From assembly GCA_003139735.1 (NCBI GenBank), contig PLGA01000392.1:1-10278 (forward strand): a stretch of DNA of 10,278 nt, given 5' to 3'. The stretch is from Bryobacterales bacterium (GTDB lineage: Bacteria; Acidobacteriota; Terriglobia; Bryobacterales; Bryobacteraceae). The notes beneath the pieces are model-generated. The model did no database searches. It was not told where the DNA came from and saw only the letters and a program-made list of their open reading frames with translations. Shown here in pieces: positions 1,266 through 10,151 of the stretch. Position 1 is the first letter of the stretch; every line of letters begins with the position of its first letter. The position numbers and the translations under genes were made by a program.

Positions 1266-1445
1266 ATGACGTTTTTGCGAAATTTCTGGCAAGAAGACGA
1301 AGGACAGGATCTCATCGAGTACACCCTGCTTCTGGCTTTCGTGGCCCTGGCATCGGCGGCCCTTTTTCTGGGCGCCGGCAAGAGCATCTCCGGAATCTGG
1401 AACGCGACGTCCACCCAACTGGCCTCCGCCAACTCCGGCAGCTAG
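1266..1445 (+). CDS. flp: Flp-type pilin prepilin, first copy (59 aa)
   Basis: Major subunit of a type IVc (Tad/Flp) pilus. The 13-residue leader is Lys-free and ends in Gly13. The prepilin site reads G|QDLIEY, with Glu at mature position +5 and Tyr at +6, the Flp signature cut by a TadV/CpaA-type peptidase. A hydrophobic helix follows (about residues 20-37, LLLAFVALASAALF), then a short polar C-terminal tail ending ANSGS. The mature protein would be 46 residues, a normal size for Flp. The ATG is preceded by AAGGAG (1252-1257) at 8 nt. The gene sits just after the membrane-protein frame and before a second, 80% identical pilin (47 of 59 residues by my count). A strong stem-loop follows the stop codon. 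Confidence 0.93.
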   Translation: MTFLRNFWQEDEGQDLIEYTLLLAFVALASAALFLGAGKSISGIWNATSTQLASANSGS

Positions 1446-1524: not shown

Positions 1525-1704
1525 ATGACCTATTTGCAAAAGTTCTGGCAAGAGGATCAAGGGCAGGATCTCATCGAGTACACCCTGCTCCTGGCATTCG
1601 TGGCGCTGGCATCGGCGGCCCTTTTTTCGGGCGCCGGCCGCAGCATCAAGGGAGTTTGGAACTCGACTTCCAGCACACTGGCTGTCGCCAACTCCGGCAG
1701 CTAG
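1525..1704 (+). CDS. flp: Flp-type pilin prepilin, second copy (59 aa)
   Basis: Paralogue of the preceding pilin with the same length. The same G|QDLIEY processing site (Gly13, Glu18, Tyr19) is present, and the hydrophobic helix is almost identical. Twelve residues differ, concentrated in the leader and in the C-terminal half (for example Leu35 to Ser, Ser42 to Lys). The distal, probably surface-exposed, part of the subunit is therefore what has changed. I chose ATG 1525 because it aligns exactly with copy 1. A GTG at 1513 with a better-spaced SD would add four residues, and the ATG at 1489 lies inside the copy-1 hairpin and is unlikely. It may act as an alternative or minor pilin in the same fibre, or simply raise dosage. 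The gap to cpaB is 183 bp, the largest inside the operon. Confidence 0.92.
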   Translation: MTYLQKFWQEDQGQDLIEYTLLLAFVALASAALFSGAGRSIKGVWNSTSSTLAVANSGS

Positions 1705-1887: not shown

Positions 1888-2760
1888 ATGCATAAAAGGT
1901 TTATTGGAGTTCTGATCTTCGCGTTTATCGTGGCCGCTTGCGGAGGCCTGCTCACCTACCGGCAGCTTATCAGGAGCCAGCCGGCGGCCCGCGCCCCCGA
2001 GCCCGTGGCGCGGATCGTCTTGGCCGCTCACGATCTCGAACCTGGCAGTATTCTGGCCGAGGGCGACGTCAGGCTGGCCGATTGGCCCGGCCCGGCGCCC
2101 GACGGAGCGTCTTCCAAACCCGAGGATTTCGTGGGCCGAGGCGTCATGGCCAAAATCTATTCCAAGGAGCCCGTAAGCTCATCGCGCCTCGCCGCCAAGG
2201 GCAGCGGCGGCGGTCTGGCCTCCTTGATTCCCGATGGCATGCGCGCTTTCGCCGTGCGCGTCAATGAGGTCGCCGGCGTGGCCGGATTCGTTACCGCGGG
2301 CATGCACGTCGATGTGGTGATCGACGGCAACCCGCCCGGGGGCGACCCCACCATGGGCACCGAGGCTCGCACCCCCCTGCAGAACATCGAGGTCCTTTCG
2401 GCCGGACAGGACTTTAAGAAGGATGCCGAAGGCAAACCCGTCACCACGCAGGTGGTCAACCTGCTGGTCAACCCGGCGCAGGCCGAAAAGCTCAGCCTGG
2501 CCGCCAACCAGACAACCATACAGCTCATCTTGCGCAATCCGATGGACCGCCGGGTGGAGCCGACTCCCGGCACCGCCCTGGCCTTCCTGTTCCATCCGGG
2601 CGGACCTGCGCCCGCTGCCCGAGCCGGTAAGCCGGCCCCGCAACGGCCCGTGGCGCATGAGGTCGCGACGCCGTCGAAGCCCGTCCCCTTCACGATGGAA
2701 ATCATCTCGGGCACCCAGAAAACCGAAAAGCAATTCGGCTCCGAAGGGGGGAATCGATAA
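1888..2760 (+). CDS. cpaB: Flp pilus assembly protein CpaB/RcpC
   Basis: Periplasmic component of the Tad pilus that works with the secretin. Residues 1-24 form an N-terminal membrane anchor (FIGVLIFAFIVAACGGLLTY). A SAF domain follows at about 41-104, with the typical VLAAHDLEPGSIL opening and a conserved small-residue pattern. The RcpC/CpaB domain spans about 115-217 (GMRAFAVRVNEVAGVAGFVTAGMHVDVV). The Ala/Pro-rich stretch 237-267 leads to a C-terminal MEIISGTQKTEKQF, a usual CpaB ending. At 290 aa the length is normal. ATG 1888 has GGGGA seven nt upstream. The TAA overlaps the next ATG by one base, indicating translational coupling with the secretin gene. Confidence 0.95.
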   Translation: MHKRFIGVLIFAFIVAACGGLLTYRQLIRSQPAARAPEPVARIVLAAHDLEPGSILAEGDVRLADWPGPAPDGASSKPEDFVGRGVMAKIYSKEPVSSSRLAAKGSGGGLASLIPDGMRAFAVRVNEVAGVAGFVTAGMHVDVVIDGNPPGGDPTMGTEARTPLQNIEVLSAGQDFKKDAEGKPVTTQVVNLLVNPAQAEKLSLAANQTTIQLILRNPMDRRVEPTPGTALAFLFHPGGPAPAARAGKPAPQRPVAHEVATPSKPVPFTMEIISGTQKTEKQFGSEGGNR

Positions 2761-4415
2761 TGTCCGGCTTACGCTGGCTGCGTGCGCATTTCTTATTGAG
2801 GCGGTGGACGCCCGCTTCGTTTGTGGGTCCGGCCGTCCGCTCCGTTTGCAGGCCGTCCGCCTTCTGCGCAATCATGGCCGCGGGTTTCTGTCTGTGCTCG
2901 TCGTTCCTGACGGCCCAAAACCCCGCCGCTCAACCGCCCGTCGTCACCTCGCCCAAGCCCACCGTCGAAGACTGGACCGTGACCGTCGGCAAGTCGCTGG
3001 TGGTGGACAGTCCGCTCACCATCGAGCGCATCTCGGTCGCCGATGGCGCCTTGGCCGACGCGGTCGGAGTCGGCCCCAGGGAAGTGCTCATCAACGGTAA
3101 GGCGCCCGGCGAAACCTCCGTCATCGTATGGCAAAGCGGCGGCAGCCGGCTGCTCTACAACCTCAGCGTCCGGCCGAGCTCGGCCAGGGTAGACGCCGTC
3201 CGGCAGCAGATCGCCCTGGAATTCCCGGAGGACGACGTCAGCATCGTCTTCGATAACGACACCGCATTCGTACGCGGCACGGTGAAGGACGTGGTGGACG
3301 CGGCGCGCGTCGCGGCCATTGCCTCCAGCCTCGGCAGGGTGGTCAACCTGCTCCACGTCGCGGTGCCTCCCGTAGAGGCGCAGATCATGGTAAAGGTACG
3401 GTTTTGCGATGTCGACCGGTCGGTCAGCAGGACCCTGGCGGTGGAGTTGGCCTCGGGAGCCTTCAACCAGTCCACTGCGTTGGGCACGGGTATGCCCCTT
3501 AGCACCACCGGCTCGCCGCCCTTCTCGCTCTCCGACGCGGTCAACATTTTTCTCTTCCGCAACGACATTAATCTGGCCGCCGCTATACAGGCGCTGGCCA
3601 GCAAGAGCCTGCTGGAGACGCTGGCCGAGCCCAGCGTGCCCGCCATCAACGGCAAGTCGGCCAGCTTCCTCGCCGGGGGCCAGTTCCCCTTCCCCGTCGT
3701 GCAACCGGGATCGAACGGCAGCGCCGCCACCATCACGATTTCCTGGCGCGAGTATGGCGTCCGTCTGAATTTCCTCCCCTTGATCACTCCCCGCGGCACC
3801 ATTCGCCTGCAAGTGGCCCCGGAAGTGAGTGCGCTCGATTACACGAACGCCATCACGATAGCCGGGACAACGGTCCCGGCCTTGTCCACGCGCAAAGTGC
3901 AGACCGAAATCGAGCTCGAAAGCGGCCAAAGCTTCGTGATCGCCGGGCTGCTCGACAACCAGACCACCGATAATTTCTCCAAGGTGCCGGGAATCGGCGA
4001 CATTCCGATCCTTGGCAAGCTATTTCAATCCAAAACGGTTTCCCGCAGCAACAGCGAGCTGCTGGTGATCGTCACGCCCGAGATCGTGCGGCCCATCCCC
4101 GCCGGCCAGCCGGCTCCGGCGCTGAATTTCCCGCAGACTTTCCTGCCCGCCAATAGCACCGGGCCGATTCGCCAGCCGGGCATGGATGTCACGGGCCCGG
4201 TTCCGGTGACGCCGCCTTCCGAGACCGTCCGGTTCGAACAGTTGTTGCAAATGCTGAAGCAGGGGCAGCCGGATACGGCGCCCAACGCCCCCGGGCTTTC
4301 CGATCCCGATTTACCGCAGGCCCCGCCCTCGACAACCGGTTCCTGGAACGCGGCGCCGCCTACCGTGTCCGGGACAGCGCGCGCCACCGGGCAAGCTGGA
4401 GGAACCGCCAGATGA
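2760..4415 (+). CDS. cpaC: Tad pilus outer-membrane secretin CpaC/RcpA
   Basis: Forms the outer-membrane channel for the Flp fibre. It has a hydrophobic signal region (about 34-50) with likely cleavage after LTA (residue 52). The N-terminal pilus-formation domain is at about 68-138 (VTVGKSLVVDSPLTIERISVADG). A BON-like segment covers 142-202. The secretin core at about 205-445 holds LLETLAEPSVPAINGKSASFLAGG (shown here only as a landmark around 285-307) and VPGIGDIPILGKLFQSK at 409-425. The tail from about 446 to 551 is Pro/Thr/Gly-rich and makes the protein longer than many family members. ATG 2760 overlaps the cpaB stop and gives an unusually long, Arg-rich n-region. An internal ATG at residue 39 (2874) would give a conventional short signal peptide, so the true start is open. 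Confidence 0.94.
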   Translation: MSGLRWLRAHFLLRRWTPASFVGPAVRSVCRPSAFCAIMAAGFCLCSSFLTAQNPAAQPPVVTSPKPTVEDWTVTVGKSLVVDSPLTIERISVADGALADAVGVGPREVLINGKAPGETSVIVWQSGGSRLLYNLSVRPSSARVDAVRQQIALEFPEDDVSIVFDNDTAFVRGTVKDVVDAARVAAIASSLGRVVNLLHVAVPPVEAQIMVKVRFCDVDRSVSRTLAVELASGAFNQSTALGTGMPLSTTGSPPFSLSDAVNIFLFRNDINLAAAIQALASKSLLETLAEPSVPAINGKSASFLAGGQFPFPVVQPGSNGSAATITISWREYGVRLNFLPLITPRGTIRLQVAPEVSALDYTNAITIAGTTVPALSTRKVQTEIELESGQSFVIAGLLDNQTTDNFSKVPGIGDIPILGKLFQSKTVSRSNSELLVIVTPEIVRPIPAGQPAPALNFPQTFLPANSTGPIRQPGMDVTGPVPVTPPSETVRFEQLLQMLKQGQPDTAPNAPGLSDPDLPQAPPSTTGSWNAAPPTVSGTARATGQAGGTAR

Positions 4416-4437: not shown

Positions 4438-5598
4438 ATGTACCCGCTAACCATCGGACTGGCTATCCAAAACCAGGACCTGATGGAGCAGACGCGCGCC
4501 TGTCTCGCCGAGCTGCCCTTCCGCGTCACCGTCGAGCAACCGGATACCGCCGACGTGGGCGGTTTCCTCGACCGCCTCGAGCGCATGCGGCCGGACGTCG
4601 TCCTGTTGGATATCACGAGTTGCCAGAGCCCTCTGGAGGGGTTGGTTACCGGCGTCCGGGCCGCCACGGGCGACTCCCTGATCGTCGCCCTGAACACCGT
4701 CGCCGACTCCGATACGATCCTGGCCGCCTTTCGCGCCGGCATCAACGAGTACGTGCATTCCCCCTTTGGCGTCACGCTCCGCAGGGCGCTCGAAAAGCGC
4801 GCCGGTGAACGCAGCCGGCGCCGCGACGGCGGACCCAAAGGCGCGGGCAAGGCCTTCGCCTTCTTCTCCGCCAAAGGCGGATGCGGCGCCACCACCCTGG
4901 CCTGTCATGTGGCCGCCGAACTGGGACGGCAGGATCGCAAGGTACTACTGGCGGATCTCGATCTGGATGCCGGCATGGTCGGGTTCATCACCAAGACCAA
5001 CTCGATCTACTCTATTCTCGACGCCGTCAATAACCTGCACCGCCTGGATATCCACTACTGGAAGGCGCTGGTCTCGAACGGAATTCATGGCGTGGATATT
5101 GTGGCGTCGCCCATGGCCCTGGCTTCCAAGCATCCGCCCAAGGACGACCAGCTTCGCCAGGTCATCGCTTTCGCCAAGCCGCACTACGATTGGATCGTGG
5201 TGGATCTCGGCCGTAGTTTGAGCCGCCTGGGCCTGGCCGCCCTGGAGGAAATCGACGAGGCCTGCCTGGTGGCCACCCTGGAAGTGCCCGCCCTGCATCA
5301 GGCCAAACAGATCATTCAGACGCTGCTCGATAGCGGATTCGGAAAGAATCGCATCCGCCTCATCCTGAACCGTTCGCCCAAGCGCATGGACATCACCCTG
5401 GGGGATCTCGAGAAAATGCTCGCCATTCCCATCTTCTGCACGGTTGCGAACGACTACACCGAGTTGTATGAGACCTATGCCGAAGGCCGCATGTTGGACC
5501 GTGGAACGAATCTCGGCAAGCAGTTCGTCAGGCTGGCTGCCAAGCTGGCCAACCTCGAAGAGGAGAAAGACCCGAAGAAGCGCGGGCTTTTCGGGTAA
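4438..5598 (+). CDS. cpaE: Tad pilus localisation ATPase-like protein CpaE/TadZ
   Basis: Places the Tad machine in the cell and belongs to the MinD/ParA superfamily. Residues 1-115 form an atypical response-regulator-like receiver domain, with Asp58 in VVLLDI at the phospho-acceptor position. The ATPase part starts at about 138. Its deviant Walker A is KGGCGATT (146-153), an ADLDLDAG switch segment is at 172-179, and Walker B is WIVVDLG (252-258). The P-loop Lys is replaced by Ala (GATT rather than GKT/S). This occurs in this family, while the signature Lys146 is retained. The charged C-terminus ends KKRGLFG. The length of 386 aa is typical. GGAGGA (4427-4432) lies 5 nt before the ATG, 22 nt after the secretin stop. 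Confidence 0.94.
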   Translation: MYPLTIGLAIQNQDLMEQTRACLAELPFRVTVEQPDTADVGGFLDRLERMRPDVVLLDITSCQSPLEGLVTGVRAATGDSLIVALNTVADSDTILAAFRAGINEYVHSPFGVTLRRALEKRAGERSRRRDGGPKGAGKAFAFFSAKGGCGATTLACHVAAELGRQDRKVLLADLDLDAGMVGFITKTNSIYSILDAVNNLHRLDIHYWKALVSNGIHGVDIVASPMALASKHPPKDDQLRQVIAFAKPHYDWIVVDLGRSLSRLGLAALEEIDEACLVATLEVPALHQAKQIIQTLLDSGFGKNRIRLILNRSPKRMDITLGDLEKMLAIPIFCTVANDYTELYETYAEGRMLDRGTNLGKQFVRLAAKLANLEEEKDPKKRGLFG

Positions 5599-5613: not shown

Positions 5614-6975
5614 ATGCCTACCGTTCTTGAAAATCCAACGCGCGCCGGGGAAAGCCGGGAAGGTGGCTGGGTAAGCCGCCTTTTCAACACCGACGGCTAC
5701 ACCCCGGAGTACCAGGAGCTGAAATTCACGCTCCATCGCAAGCTCCTCGACCGGATCAATCTGGAGGCGCTCTCCTCCATGGCCAGCGAGCGCGTGCGCA
5801 CCGAAATCCGAGCCGCGGTCGCCAAGCTCGTCGAAGAGGAGAAGACCCCCCTCAGCCTGTTGGAGAAGGACCGCGTGATCGAGGAGATCCTCGATGAAGT
5901 GTTCGGTCTCGGCCCTCTGGAGCCGCTCCTTCAGGACCCCGACATCAGCGACATCCTGGTGACCACCCCGCACCTGGTCTATGTGGAGCGCGGCGGAAAA
6001 CTGTATCGCACTTCCGTTGAGTTCAAAGACGACGCCCACCTGCTGCGCATCATTGAAAAGATCGTCTCGCGCGTGGGCCGCCGCGTGGACGAATCGTCGC
6101 CCCTGGTGGATGCCCGGCTTCCGGACGGTTCGCGCGTCAATGCCGCCATCGCGCCGGTCGCCGTGGACGGCCCGCTGCTTTGCATCCGCCGCTTCGGCCG
6201 CACCGCCCTGAAGGGCGAGGACTTGGTGGCCAAAGGGAGCATGACCGCCAGCATGCTGGAGTTGCTCAAGGGCTGCATTAGAGCGCGGCTCAATATCCTC
6301 ATCTGCGGCGGAACCGGCTCCGGCAAGACCACCCTGCTCAACGCGCTGTCGTCCTACATCCCCGAGGACGAGCGCATCGTGACCATCGAAGACGCGGCCG
6401 AATTGCGGCTCCAGCAGACCCACGTGGCGCGCATGGAAACGCGCCCCCCCAACGTGGAGGGCGTGGGCGCCATTCACATTCGCCAGCTTGTCATCAACGC
6501 CCTCCGCATGCGTCCCGACCGCATCATCGTCGGCGAGGTGCGCGCCGAGGAAGCCCTGGACATGTTGCAGGCCATGAACACCGGCCACGACGGCTCCCTC
6601 ACCACCATCCACGCCAATAACCCCCGCGACGGCTTGGGACGCCTGGAAGTCATGGTCGGCATGGCCAACGCCAACATGGGCGTGCGCTCCATCCGCCAGC
6701 AGATCTCCTCGGCGGTCGACCTGTTCGTTCAGACCTCGCGCTTCAGCGACGGCTGCCGGCGCATCACCCATATTACCGAGGTGACCGGGATGGAGGAGAA
6801 TACCATCTCGCTCCAGGACATCTTCCTGTTTGAGAAGACCGGAATCACCGAATCGGGCCGGGTCGCGGGGCGCTTCCGCGCCACCGGCGTCCGCCCCAAG
6901 TTCTACGAGCGCCTGCGGGCGTGCGGCATCGTGCTGCCCATGCAGACCTTTCAAACCGTGCAGGAGGTCAACTAA
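5614..6975 (+). CDS. cpaF: Tad pilus assembly ATPase CpaF/TadA
   Basis: Hexameric secretion ATPase that powers Flp pilus polymerisation from the cytoplasmic side. The N-terminal helical domain, about residues 30-120, includes the [20 protein letters not shown] family landmark (97-116). The core contains Walker [10 protein letters not shown] (232-240), an Asp box VTIEDAAEL (256-264), Walker B around [13 protein letters not shown] (298-310) and a His box [13 protein letters not shown] (323-335). No zinc-binding Cys tetrad is seen, as expected for TadA-type rather than PilB/GspE-type ATPases. The 453 aa are normal. An AAGGA at 5598-5602 overlaps the tadZ stop and lies 11 nt before ATG 5614. The TAA overlaps the ATG of tadB by one base. 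Confidence 0.97.
6962..6968 (+). promoter_or_regulatory. Ribosome binding site fixing the tadB start
   Basis: AGGAGGT sits 6 nt before ATG 6975, inside the last codons of cpaF. It makes ATG 6975 (TAATG overlap) the start, rather than an upstream in-frame GTG at 6921 that would add 18 unconserved residues and has no such site. Confidence 0.8.
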
Positions 6976-7946
6976 TGGCTGCCGGAGTCCTGGTTTCTTT
7001 CGTGGTCGTCTTCGCGCTGGTTCTGTGCGCGGTGAGCGTGGCGATGAAATTCTTCGAGGCCAAACGAAAGAGCCAGGTGACCGGCATGCTGAAGACCGCC
7101 TCGGGCGAGTCGCGGACCAGTCTCTCCAACCTGCTGAAAGAAGCCGAACCCGAAAAGCCTACCGGCATCAAAACGCTGCTCGCCTCCCTCCAGTTTTCGC
7201 GCCAGGCGCAGATCCAGCTTACCGAAGCGGGCATGAACTGGAAGGTGAGCCGTCTGCTGGCGGTCATGGGCGCGATGGCCGCGTTCGGATTTGCGCTGGG
7301 CATTGCGTTTCCCCTTCTGTTGAACGGCCCGACCACCGCCCTGTCGCTGGCGGCCGTCTGCGGAGTTATGCCGTATCTCTTCGTGAGACGGAAGCGGAAG
7401 AAGCGGCTGGCCGCATTGGAAGAGCAGTTTCCGGACGCTCTCGATTTCCTGGCGCGGTCCATGCGCGCCGGCCATGCATTCTCGATCAGCATGGACATGC
7501 TGGGCCAGGAGCTCGAAGACCCTCTGGGCCAGGAGTTCCGAGGACTTTTCAACGAACAGAACCTGGGCGCCCCGCTCGACATCGCGTTGCGCAATTTCGC
7601 CGTGCGCGTGCCGCTGCTCGACGCGCGCTTCTTTACCACCTCCGTGCTCCTGCAAAAGCAAACCGGCGGCAACCTGAGCGAGATCCTCACGCGTCTGGCT
7701 TACATTATCCGCGAGCGCTTTCGCCTGAAAGGTCAGGTGAGGGCCGCCAGTTCGCACGGGCGCCTGACCGCGACCATATTGACCGTTTTGCCCATCGCCA
7801 CCACGGTCTGCATGCTGCTCGTGGCCCATGGTTACCTGGAGGGCATGGCCGCCGACCCCGACGGCAAGAAACTCATCGGTGGGGCCATCGTGGCCCAGGT
7901 CTTGGGGAGGTTTTTCATCACGCGGATTATCGACATTAAGGTGTGA
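6975..7946 (+). CDS. tadB: Tad pilus inner-membrane platform protein TadB
   Basis: Integral membrane partner of TadC. Together they form the platform on which TadA acts. The 323 aa have a membrane segment at about 1-23, a soluble linker (24-90), a pair of segments at about 93-113 and 118-137, a cytoplasmic T2SSF-type domain at about 148-262, and two final segments at about 265-285 and 299-317. Family marks are LEEQFPDALDFLARSMRAGH (148-167) and LLQKQTGGNLSEIL (225-238). It is coupled to cpaF by a one-base overlap, and tadC follows after two bases. The layout and length are standard for TadB. Confidence 0.95.
   Translation: MAAGVLVSFVVVFALVLCAVSVAMKFFEAKRKSQVTGMLKTASGESRTSLSNLLKEAEPEKPTGIKTLLASLQFSRQAQIQLTEAGMNWKVSRLLAVMGAMAAFGFALGIAFPLLLNGPTTALSLAAVCGVMPYLFVRRKRKKRLAALEEQFPDALDFLARSMRAGHAFSISMDMLGQELEDPLGQEFRGLFNEQNLGAPLDIALRNFAVRVPLLDARFFTTSVLLQKQTGGNLSEILTRLAYIIRERFRLKGQVRAASSHGRLTATILTVLPIATTVCMLLVAHGYLEGMAADPDGKKLIGGAIVAQVLGRFFITRIIDIKV
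7938..7943 (+). promoter_or_regulatory. Ribosome binding site fixing the tadC start
   Basis: AAGGTG ends 5 nt before ATG 7949. The alternative in-frame GTG at 7943 would overlap this site, so ATG 7949 is preferred. The site lies within the last codons of tadB, in keeping with translational coupling. Confidence 0.6.
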
Positions 7947-7948
7947 CT

Positions 7949-8896
7949 ATGGCGCATCCCCTGCTCATATCCATTTGCGCCTTCCTGATGTTGCTGCTAT
8001 TCCTCAGCGGCGCGTCGTACCGCGTGATCTACAAGCCCGGCAAATTCCTCAAACAGCTTGGCGCTCCCGTGATCACGGACGCCGCTGTGCGCCTCGCGGC
8101 GGCGGAAGCCAACGAGCCCAGCGGCAGCACCGTGCTCGCCGTGCTCCACCAGCTCGGCTCCAGGATGCCGTCCTCCGATGCCGACCTCAGCTCGTTGCGC
8201 ACGGATTTGCTTCGCGCCGGCTTCCGCTCCGAGACCGCCGCGCCGGTTTTCTACGGCATGCGATTCGTGGCCACGGCGGCCATGTTCGCGATCAGTCTGG
8301 CGCTGCAGCCCAAAATGCCCGAAAACCCGCCCATGAGAATGGCGCTGCTGGGCTTTGGCGTGGCCGCCGGGTGGATTCTGCCTCGGTTTTTCCTCGAGAA
8401 AAAGGTGGCCAAGCGGCAAACGATTTTGCGGCTCTCGCTTCCCGACGCCTTGGACCTCCTGGTGGTCGCCATCGAGGCCGGCCTGGGATTGGATCAGGCC
8501 ATGCAGTACGTGGGACGCGAACTCCAATGGAGCCATCCCGAATTGAGCGAAGAGTTGTTCCTGGTGCAGCTCGAAATGCGCGCCGGAAAACAGCGCTCGG
8601 AGGCCTTGCGCAACCTTGCCGAGCGCACCGGCGAACCGGAAATCAAAAAGTTGGTGGCCATCCTCATTCAGAACGACCGCTTTGGCACGAGCATGGGCGA
8701 ATCCCTGCGCAGCCATTCGGACTTCCTGCGCGTCAGAAGGCGCCAGGACGCCGAGGAGCGCGCCGGTAAAGTCGGCGCAAAGCTGGTCTTTCCCATCTTT
8801 TTTTTCATTTTGCCGTCAATGCTGGTGGTCGCGGCAGGCCCTGGGCTTCTTCAGATTTTCAAGAACCTATTCCCCATGATGAACCAATTCAAATAA
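7949..8896 (+). CDS. tadC: Tad pilus inner-membrane platform protein TadC
   Basis: Second platform protein, paralogous to TadB, 315 aa. There is an N-terminal membrane segment (about 4-22), a soluble region (23-98) with SLRTDLLRAGF (82-92) like the conserved region in TadB, and a membrane pair (about 102-119 and 131-149). The T2SSF domain is at about 158-272 (LRLSLPDALDLLVVAIEAGLGL around 160-181, FGTSMGESLR 245-254). A final segment lies at about 277-297. The short amphipathic C-terminus is LLQIFKNLFPMMNQFK. A run of eight T (8798-8805) encodes Phe residues in the last segment, which is unusual in this GC-rich DNA. It ends the recognisable Tad block. Confidence 0.95.
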   Translation: MAHPLLISICAFLMLLLFLSGASYRVIYKPGKFLKQLGAPVITDAAVRLAAAEANEPSGSTVLAVLHQLGSRMPSSDADLSSLRTDLLRAGFRSETAAPVFYGMRFVATAAMFAISLALQPKMPENPPMRMALLGFGVAAGWILPRFFLEKKVAKRQTILRLSLPDALDLLVVAIEAGLGLDQAMQYVGRELQWSHPELSEELFLVQLEMRAGKQRSEALRNLAERTGEPEIKKLVAILIQNDRFGTSMGESLRSHSDFLRVRRRQDAEERAGKVGAKLVFPIFFFILPSMLVVAAGPGLLQIFKNLFPMMNQFK

Positions 8897-8912
8897 AGGG
8901 AGTAAAACGAAA

Positions 8913-9005
8913 ATGCACATACTCGTTCAGTACGGTATCTGGCTGGCCGCTGGCGCGGTCCTCCTGGTCTTCCTGAAACGCCGTCGTTCCCGCAAGAGCG
9001 TCTAG
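8913..9005 (+). CDS. Micropeptide 1, single-pass membrane peptide with C-terminal RRR (30 aa)
   Basis: A 30-codon frame starts 16 nt after the tadC stop. AGGGAG (8897-8902) lies 10 nt before its ATG. The peptide starts MHILVQYGIWLAA, continues with a hydrophobic stretch (residues 8-21, ending LVFL) and ends KRRRSRKSV. The positive-inside rule would put the C-terminus in the cytoplasm. I do not recognise a family. The hydrophobic-plus-Arg layout recalls the tails of sorting signals such as PEP-CTERM or LPXTG, but no PEP or LPXTG box and no body protein is present. The strongest support for it being real is the second, similar frame downstream. It could be a small accessory subunit of the Tad platform. 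Confidence 0.6.
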   Translation: MHILVQYGIWLAAGAVLLVFLKRRRSRKSV

Positions 9006-9036
9006 TGCGGCGGCCGACCTGGCTTGGGCGCTTCCG

Positions 9037-9056
9037 GGGCTGGGCATGCCCGGCCC
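9037..9056 (+). other. Near-perfect palindrome between the micropeptide genes
   Basis: GGGCTGGGC (9037-9045) and GCCCGGCCC (9048-9056) can pair with one G-U wobble around CAUG in RNA. The surrounding gap (9006-9122) has no gene I can support. No T-tract follows, so an RNA processing or attenuation role is more likely than termination. Confidence 0.35.
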
Positions 9057-9122
9057 TCGCCTGCCGTCAATAGCGGGCGTGGCTCCGAGCTAAAGCGCCT
9101 TCATAAAAACGAAAGGAGAAAC

Positions 9123-9218
9123 ATGGATCTCGCGTTGCAGGCCTCCATTTGGCTGGCTGCGGTCGTGACGCTGGTCAGCCTGTTGCAGCGCCGCCGCAAG
9201 CGGTTAACGCTGCGGTGA
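9123..9218 (+). CDS. Micropeptide 2, single-pass membrane peptide with C-terminal RRR (31 aa)
   Basis: A 31-codon frame with a strong SD, AAGGAG at 9113-9118, 4 nt before ATG 9123. It starts MDLALQASIWLAA, has a hydrophobic stretch (residues 8-21) and ends with LQRRRKRLTLR. Aligned without gaps to micropeptide 1 it shares Gln6, the IWLAA block (residues 9-13), Leu17, Leu21 and the RRR block (23-25) at identical positions. The pair looks like a gene duplication of a membrane micropeptide. Function is unknown to me. Position after tadC suggests a link to the pilus or its regulation. Its reading frame continues open after the TGA into the next gene. Confidence 0.65.
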   Translation: MDLALQASIWLAAVVTLVSLLQRRRKRLTLR

Positions 9219-9296: not shown

Positions 9297-10151
9297 ATGC
9301 CGATTGTCCTGCTCAAGCAAAAGCAGAACCCCGATGGTGGATGGCCTTACATCCGCGGCTCCTCCTGGACGGAGCCGACGGCCTACGCGGTCCTGGCGCT
9401 GTTGTCCGCCGGAGAAACCGAGGCTGCCGGGAGCGGCCTGCGCTGGCTTCGCGCGGCGCAGCGCTCCGATGGAGGCTTTCCGCCCCAACCGGGCGTCGAC
9501 CACAGCGCCTGGGTCACGGCGCTTGCGTCCCTTGTGCCCGCCGGGCGGCTGGGGTTGCCGGTCCACGCGCGCGCCGTCGCATGGCTGTTGAGAGACTGCG
9601 GGGCGGAATCCACCCTCGCTTACCGCGTGCGCGAGTGGCTTCTGGGCAGTTCGGTCGGCGATTCCGAAAACGTGGGCTGGCCCTGGGCGCCGGACGCCGC
9701 CGCGTGGGTTGGACCGACTTCCCTGGCGATCCTCGCGCTCAAGAAAGAGCACTTGCGGAGGCCTTCGGCCGCGATCCGCGGGAGGGTCGAGTCCGCCACG
9801 CGATTCCTGTGGAGCCGCATGTGCAACGGGGGTGGATGGAATTACGGGAACGCGAGCGTGTTGGGGCAGGATCTGCGGCCCTACCCCGAGACCACCGGAA
9901 TGGCGCTCGCAGCCTTGCGCGGCGATCGCTCTCCCCGGATCGGCCAAGCCATCGCCGTCGCCACCCGATTTCTCGCGGAGTGCCGCTCCGCCGATGCTCT
10001 GAACTGGCTCCGGCTCGGCCTCATCGCTCACGGATGCCTGCCCGAGGGATACTGCCCGCCGCCGCGTATCGAACGCCGCACCATTATGGAGGCATCGCTC
10101 GATCTGCTGGTGGCCAATGCCTCGAATGCCGAAGGCCTGTTGGGGAGTTGA
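9297..10151 (+). CDS. Alpha/alpha-toroid protein with squalene-cyclase/prenyltransferase-type repeats
   Basis: The 284-aa protein has QW-like repeat motifs: QNPDGGWPY at 10-18, QRSDGGFP at 55-62 and GGGWNYGN at 178-185. Helical TEPTAYAVLAL (25-35), HSAWVTALASL (69-79) and GPTSLAILAL (139-148) segments come between them. These mark the alpha/alpha-barrel fold of terpenoid cyclases and protein prenyltransferase beta subunits. It is less than half the length of squalene-hopene cyclases (about 630 aa). I find no DXDD protonation motif, so cyclase activity is unlikely. A binding or scaffold role, or action on another substrate, is possible. No signal peptide or membrane segment is evident. ATG 9297 is the first start in the frame after the preceding stop, but it has no clear SD. 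Confidence 0.8.
   Translation: MPIVLLKQKQNPDGGWPYIRGSSWTEPTAYAVLALLSAGETEAAGSGLRWLRAAQRSDGGFPPQPGVDHSAWVTALASLVPAGRLGLPVHARAVAWLLRDCGAESTLAYRVREWLLGSSVGDSENVGWPWAPDAAAWVGPTSLAILALKKEHLRRPSAAIRGRVESATRFLWSRMCNGGGWNYGNASVLGQDLRPYPETTGMALAALRGDRSPRIGQAIAVATRFLAECRSADALNWLRLGLIAHGCLPEGYCPPPRIERRTIMEASLDLLVANASNAEGLLGS

Follow-up and report, generated by a model that had tools for sequence, protein, structure and literature searches.

CydX, KdpF and AcrZ are small accessory subunits of complexes in the inner membrane, which they span once. In the Tad (type IVc) pilus machinery, which comprises TadA, TadB, TadC, TadZ, RcpA, RcpC/CpaB and Flp, the portion of PMC11300603 available to us mentions no peptide subunit of this kind. 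According to the same portion, TadA, TadB and TadC are likely sufficient to drive assembly, TadB and TadC are the platform for the CpaF/TadA motor, and the passing-on of motor motion is left open (PMC11300603). Here, we describe two micropeptides, PepA (MHILVQYGIWLAAGAVLLVFLKRRRSRKSV) and PepB (MDLALQASIWLAAVVTLVSLLQRRRKRLTLR), that are encoded in a Tad operon directly behind tadC.

The window, that is the whole stretch of 10,278 nucleotides analyzed (G000:C525:1-10278), belongs to a genome that is 82% complete and has relatives among named records in Bryobacterales/Bryobacteraceae MAGs (Acidobacteriota). The order of its Tad operon is as follows:

1266..1445, + strand: Flp prepilin 1 (GQDLIEYTLLL by motif scan; ends derived from scan output)
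1525..1704, + strand: Flp prepilin 2 (GQDLIEYTLLL by motif scan; ORF listed)
1888..2760, + strand: RcpC/CpaB (Pfam RcpC, E 4.6e-25)
2760..4415, + strand: RcpA/CpaC secretin (Pfam Secretin, E 2.4e-45)
4438..5598, + strand: TadZ/CpaE-like ATPase (Pfam AAA_31 and CbiA)
5614..6975, + strand: TadA/CpaF ATPase (Pfam T2SSE, E 5.8e-61)
6921..7946, + strand: TadB platform protein (Pfam T2SSF, E 2.1e-14; coordinates are those of the ORF as listed)
7943..8896, + strand: TadC platform protein, the gene preceding the peptides (Pfam T2SSF, E 5.6e-19)
8898..8902, + strand: ribosome-site-like GGGAG of PepA (read from the sequence)
8913..9005, + strand: PepA, 30 aa, first TadC-linked micropeptide, predicted N-out/C-in single-pass (homologue behind tadC in 27/27 window-type loci; pN/pS 0.43)
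9113..9118, + strand: ribosome-site-like AAGGAG of PepB (read from the sequence)
9123..9218, + strand: PepB, 31 aa, the second such micropeptide (present in 24/27 window-type loci; pN/pS 0.28)
9297..10151, + strand: squalene-cyclase/TED-like gene (Pfam TED_complement, 22.2 bits with a cut-off of 22)

The real start of TadB probably lies further in, behind tadA. The two Flp prepilins are near-identical to each other, and we noticed no gene for a minor pilin or a prepilin peptidase in the window. The original prediction had placed the peptide pair at the end of the Tad operon. This had to be given up, as the squalene-cyclase/TED-like gene comes next and no terminator-like site was found between 8700 and 10278. 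Relatives of this gene, which is of the alpha/alpha-toroid type, stand behind the peptides in 14 of the 19 other operons examined.

PepA and PepB share the gap-free pattern that had been noticed at the outset (Q6, IWLAA at 9-13, L17, L21 and RRR at 23-25), and each frame is indeed preceded by a Shine-Dalgarno-like site. It had also been argued that random short frames would not match in this way. The two peptides align with a score of 50, which none of 5000 shuffles of PepB reached when the composition of its three segments was kept. The best shuffle scored 49, however, and the likeness of the pair is therefore only modest evidence when taken alone. What settles that the peptide frames are real is the comparative evidence.

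A TadC match was present in 227 of the 237 genomes of the window's family. Among the first 33 loci examined, taken from among the TadC matches listed (30 of window type and three of other operons), a short frame for a membrane peptide with a basic tail came after tadC in 31; the misses were L008 and L036, the latter being a contig end. Sixty further loci with about 42-58% TadC identity were chosen from the matches listed, by hand and not at random, and 59 of these passed a looser filter. The peptide of the remaining locus, L127 (MDSGLIRIVCSVMAAAFLGLIIVRRRNTEE), was found by eye. With L036 left out, a peptide-like frame follows tadC in 91 of 92 Acidobacteriota loci if a ribosome site is not required, and in 89 of 92 if it is. 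The latter count was obtained with a strict filter for SD-preceded membrane ORFs of 26-40 aa with a basic tail, located no more than 400 nt after tadC. It missed L008, L090 and L114, of which L090 and L114 do have the frame, lacking a strict ribosome site. This filter was devised after the peptides had been seen; applied identically to controls, it accepted two of 1840 dinucleotide shuffles, none of 92 antisense stretches and none of 652 windows located >600 nt downstream. In G131, both L069 and L071 have a divergent small frame between tadC and the typical peptide.

The codons of both peptides are under purifying selection. Over a 22-codon core, pS was 0.638 and pN 0.275 for PepA (27 loci), with pN below pS in all 351 pairs, and the respective values for PepB (24 loci) were 0.526 and 0.148, with pN below pS in all 276 pairs. 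Among the PepA rows, that of L014 has a short insertion and lies slightly out of register. PepB was not found in three of the 27 window-type loci (L020, a contig end, L022 and L035). Third codon positions are the most variable in the PepA and PepB alignments, and shifted frames yielded ratios above 1. The expectation that SD-preceded frames of 28-35 codons recur behind tadC and change mainly synonymously was thus borne out, and the frames are real genes tied to tadC.

A peptide could be read in all 91 loci of a distance comparison, a set to which L008 does not belong. These 91 peptides have 30-40 aa (median 32) and follow one plan, consisting of a near-neutral start, a single hydrophobic stretch forming the predicted membrane helix and an Arg/Lys-rich tail. 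Each is a stand-alone frame with its own start and stop and without secreted cargo. Trp occurs in 75 of them. The mean charge is -0.54 on the N-side and +5.97 on the C-side, and the C-side is the more positive one in 91/91. According to the positive-inside rule, the more positive flank of a membrane helix stays in the cytoplasm, so that an N-out/C-in orientation is predicted. A small-xxx-small helix-packing motif was considered as a fixed feature and rejected, as it is present in only 28/91. Searches of Pfam returned nothing for PepA or PepB up to an E value of 1.

To what extent the peptides occur apart from tadC was assessed with profiles. A PepB profile built from 16 sequences gave 119 listed places in 82 of the 237 whole genomes at E <=0.01, 16 of these places being the profile's own rows. 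Of the 119, 109 follow a listed TadC of the same strand at a distance of 0-450 nt, and three more joined them after TadC had been sought in their genomes, resulting in 112/119 places behind TadC (97/98 at E <=1e-3). The sole strong place without TadC, G168:C293, begins at base 4 of its contig, and the other six have E >1e-3. A profile of class-2 peptides (11 sequences) was run against 396 genomes from the phylum and matched 41 of them; TadC was then sought in 40 matching genomes. Behind TadC were 32/33 class-2 places at E <=1e-4 and 34/45 at E <=0.01, the 45 including the class-2 locus of the window's own genome. Single-contig genomes from a second family of the class (G472, G480 and G496) are among those with class-2 peptides. 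With the same 396 genomes, the profile of the first class matched mainly in the window's family. Outside of it, matches were found in G563 (behind a TadC fragment), in G412 and at weak places mostly within long frames. The match in G412, a member of another family, is a twin pair (L228, about 11432-11760) with E values of 4.9e-14 and 9.6e-10. No TadC was detected at E <=1e-3 in this genome, which is a single scaffold with 100-base gaps and 85% complete, and the orphan pair may be a relic, the product of an assembly gap or a case of orphan use.

Both the presence and the class of the peptide follow the TadC tree. Among 80 named tadC loci, which partly overlap with the genome sets from the family and the phylum, a peptide was found in 45 (including L181, by eye) and none in 35. 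A TadC-peptide fusion considered for L181 was ruled out because the two are separated by TGA. On the TadC tree of 78 rows, from which the short rows L162 and L198 had been dropped, the peptide trait changes four times as compared with a mean of 25.9 after shuffling, and none of 500 shuffles was as low. One starred clade has the peptide in 38/38 rows and is divided into two starred subclades, each of 19, that differ in peptide class. Since the two classes match the two TadC subclades, swap experiments are ready-made. In the named set, no peptide was found in loci from Nitrospirota, Proteobacteria, Planctomycetes, Desulfobacteraceae and Gemmatimonadetes, and a Krumholzibacteria locus (L204) gave a looser match of 38 aa. 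The peptide is missing from the Tad systems of other phyla and also from many within Acidobacteriota, and hence is not essential to Tad pili generally. Where it is missing, another gene mostly lies directly after tadC. On three annotated proteobacterial plasmids, the annotated genes in this position encode a MarR-type regulator or TPR proteins. Several peptide-less operons (L166, L167, L172, L176, L177 and others) have a protein of 127-135 aa of one kind (AFNQTR...THWSRLRGLLG) after tadC, which may be DUF192-like.

Distances between peptides correlate with those between the TadC proteins (r 0.68; none of 2000 permutations was as high, maximum 0.19). Such a value would also be expected if the two had simply descended together in one operon. 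Among genomes with several operons, eight in number, 12/18 peptides are closer to the peptide at the locus of the nearest TadC elsewhere than to the paralogue in their own genome, while 6/18 are not. Operons have one, two or three peptide copies: those of the window's clade carry two divergent ones, and tandem class-2 copies occur as three similar ones in G472 (L229) and as two identical ones in G642 (L232). We also gave AlphaFold2 a 43-row alignment, in which 35 rows read through from TadC into the peptide and eight have TadC only. The model of the read-through TadC-PepA row had a mean pLDDT of 80.8 and a pTM of 0.64, with the peptide modeled as a helix at 327-355 (block pLDDT 81-85). It was not used as evidence for binding because it is without contact information and the linker forces closeness. 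Its best Foldseek matches were cytoplasmic domains of EpsF (E 0.023), and searching the PDB with the TadC sequence returned nothing meaningful.

Of the roles proposed originally, that of a putative TadB/TadC partner fits best. We consider it fairly probable that PepA and PepB are accessory subunits of the TadB-TadC inner-membrane platform in N-out/C-in orientation. The orientation, TadC binding and function that we infer can be outlined as follows. The peptide would insert into the inner membrane such that its short N-terminus faces outwards and its Arg/Lys tail stays cytoplasmic. It would pack against the membrane helices of either TadC or the TadB-TadC pair and might help to assemble or steady the platform. 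The basic tail would then lie at the cytoplasmic face, next to the contact between the platform and the TadA motor.

Other explanations were weighed against this one. Small size and hydrophobicity, together with the prepilins in the same operon, could speak for a pilin- or pseudopilin-like subunit (the latter suggested in the original prediction) that enters the filament. Unlike the Flp prepilins, however, none of the 91 peptides has a prepilin-peptidase-type motif (G-x4-E-Y type) before the helix, and their charges predict the reverse orientation. In addition, the number of Flp genes (0-3) did not correspond to that of the peptides in the window and 19 other operons; the Flp motif scan gave 0 for three loci, one of which (L214) begins near a contig end. 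We regard a place in the filament as very unlikely. Type I toxins are likewise short and have a single basic-flanked helix, and a membrane toxin, for example of a type I toxin-antitoxin pair, would be in line with the length and helix of our peptides. Yet the window contains no Rfam family, with RNA outside Rfam being possible, the profile matches lie almost exclusively behind tadC and selection on the peptides is long-term and purifying. The membrane-stress toxin proposed at the outset is improbable, given that the peptide genes are passed on together with tadC as part of a pilus operon. Short frames between genes of one operon could also be a translated leader, coupling or spacer element for which translation or RNA matters and the peptide does not. 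We give this little credence, because selection acts on the protein sequence and the PepA-PepB spacer, which contains just a short palindrome at 9037-9056, folds no better than shuffles (z -0.52). The resemblance to the membrane-plus-Arg end of sorting signals that had been pointed out is real. In NCBIfam, PepB reaches 15.9 bits with the MYXO-CTERM model TIGR03382 (cut-off 15.85), with which it shares a membrane stretch followed by RRR, and PepA and the class-2 peptide stay under all cut-offs shown. The match is nevertheless confined to the membrane stretch and the Arg residues. The peptides are stand-alone genes with their own start codons and ribosome sites, have neither recognition motif nor cargo and are tied to tadC. 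That they are sorting tails (MYXO-CTERM/LPXTG-like) detached from their cargo is highly improbable.

MgtR and AcrZ are models for small regulators or stability factors, and the peptides could similarly be membrane-bound factors that tune pilus dynamics or the proteolysis of TadB/TadC without being structural subunits. The genetic tie to tadC would be the same, and a variable copy number, such as the tandem copies in G472 and G642, suits a dose-setting factor. Near-constant presence throughout a clade, in turn, is more in keeping with a fixed part than with an optional regulator, and we consider a regulatory role rather unlikely. Returning to an accessory subunit of the platform, we tentatively suggest that the platform in a large part of the Acidobacteriota might comprise, besides TadB and TadC, at least one obligate helix of 30 aa. 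Such a third subunit, duplicated in some lineages as a PepA/PepB hetero-pair, might set how the platform engages the TadA motor. A basic-tailed helix would be well placed at the platform-motor junction, for which the available portion of PMC11300603 leaves the coupling open. A helix that accompanies TadC throughout one clade but does not occur in others would offer a natural handle on the way in which TadB and TadC convert the action of the TadA motor into pilus extension and retraction.

Many soil Acidobacteriota have, behind tadC, one to three overlooked genes for membrane peptides of about 30 residues, which are probably a minor component of the pilus machinery. With a length of just some 30 residues, even a conserved part of a machine that has been studied well can escape notice. 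Our literature search, covering titles and the beginnings of abstracts, yielded no description of such Tad-linked peptides, and the global small-protein catalogue (PMC11364881) may contain them unnamed. Together with the recurrence in 91 of 92 loci and the purifying selection, this supports the original view of a conserved and possibly undescribed family of single-pass peptides. Small single-pass partners of membrane complexes are already known; as far as the search goes, one linked to the Tad platform within a clade is not described. Like CydX, KdpF and AcrZ, the peptides have about 30-50 aa, form one helix, are encoded beside a large partner and are poorly caught by annotation. The likeness is one of plan, and what sets the peptides apart from CydX, KdpF and AcrZ is their putative partner, the Tad platform.
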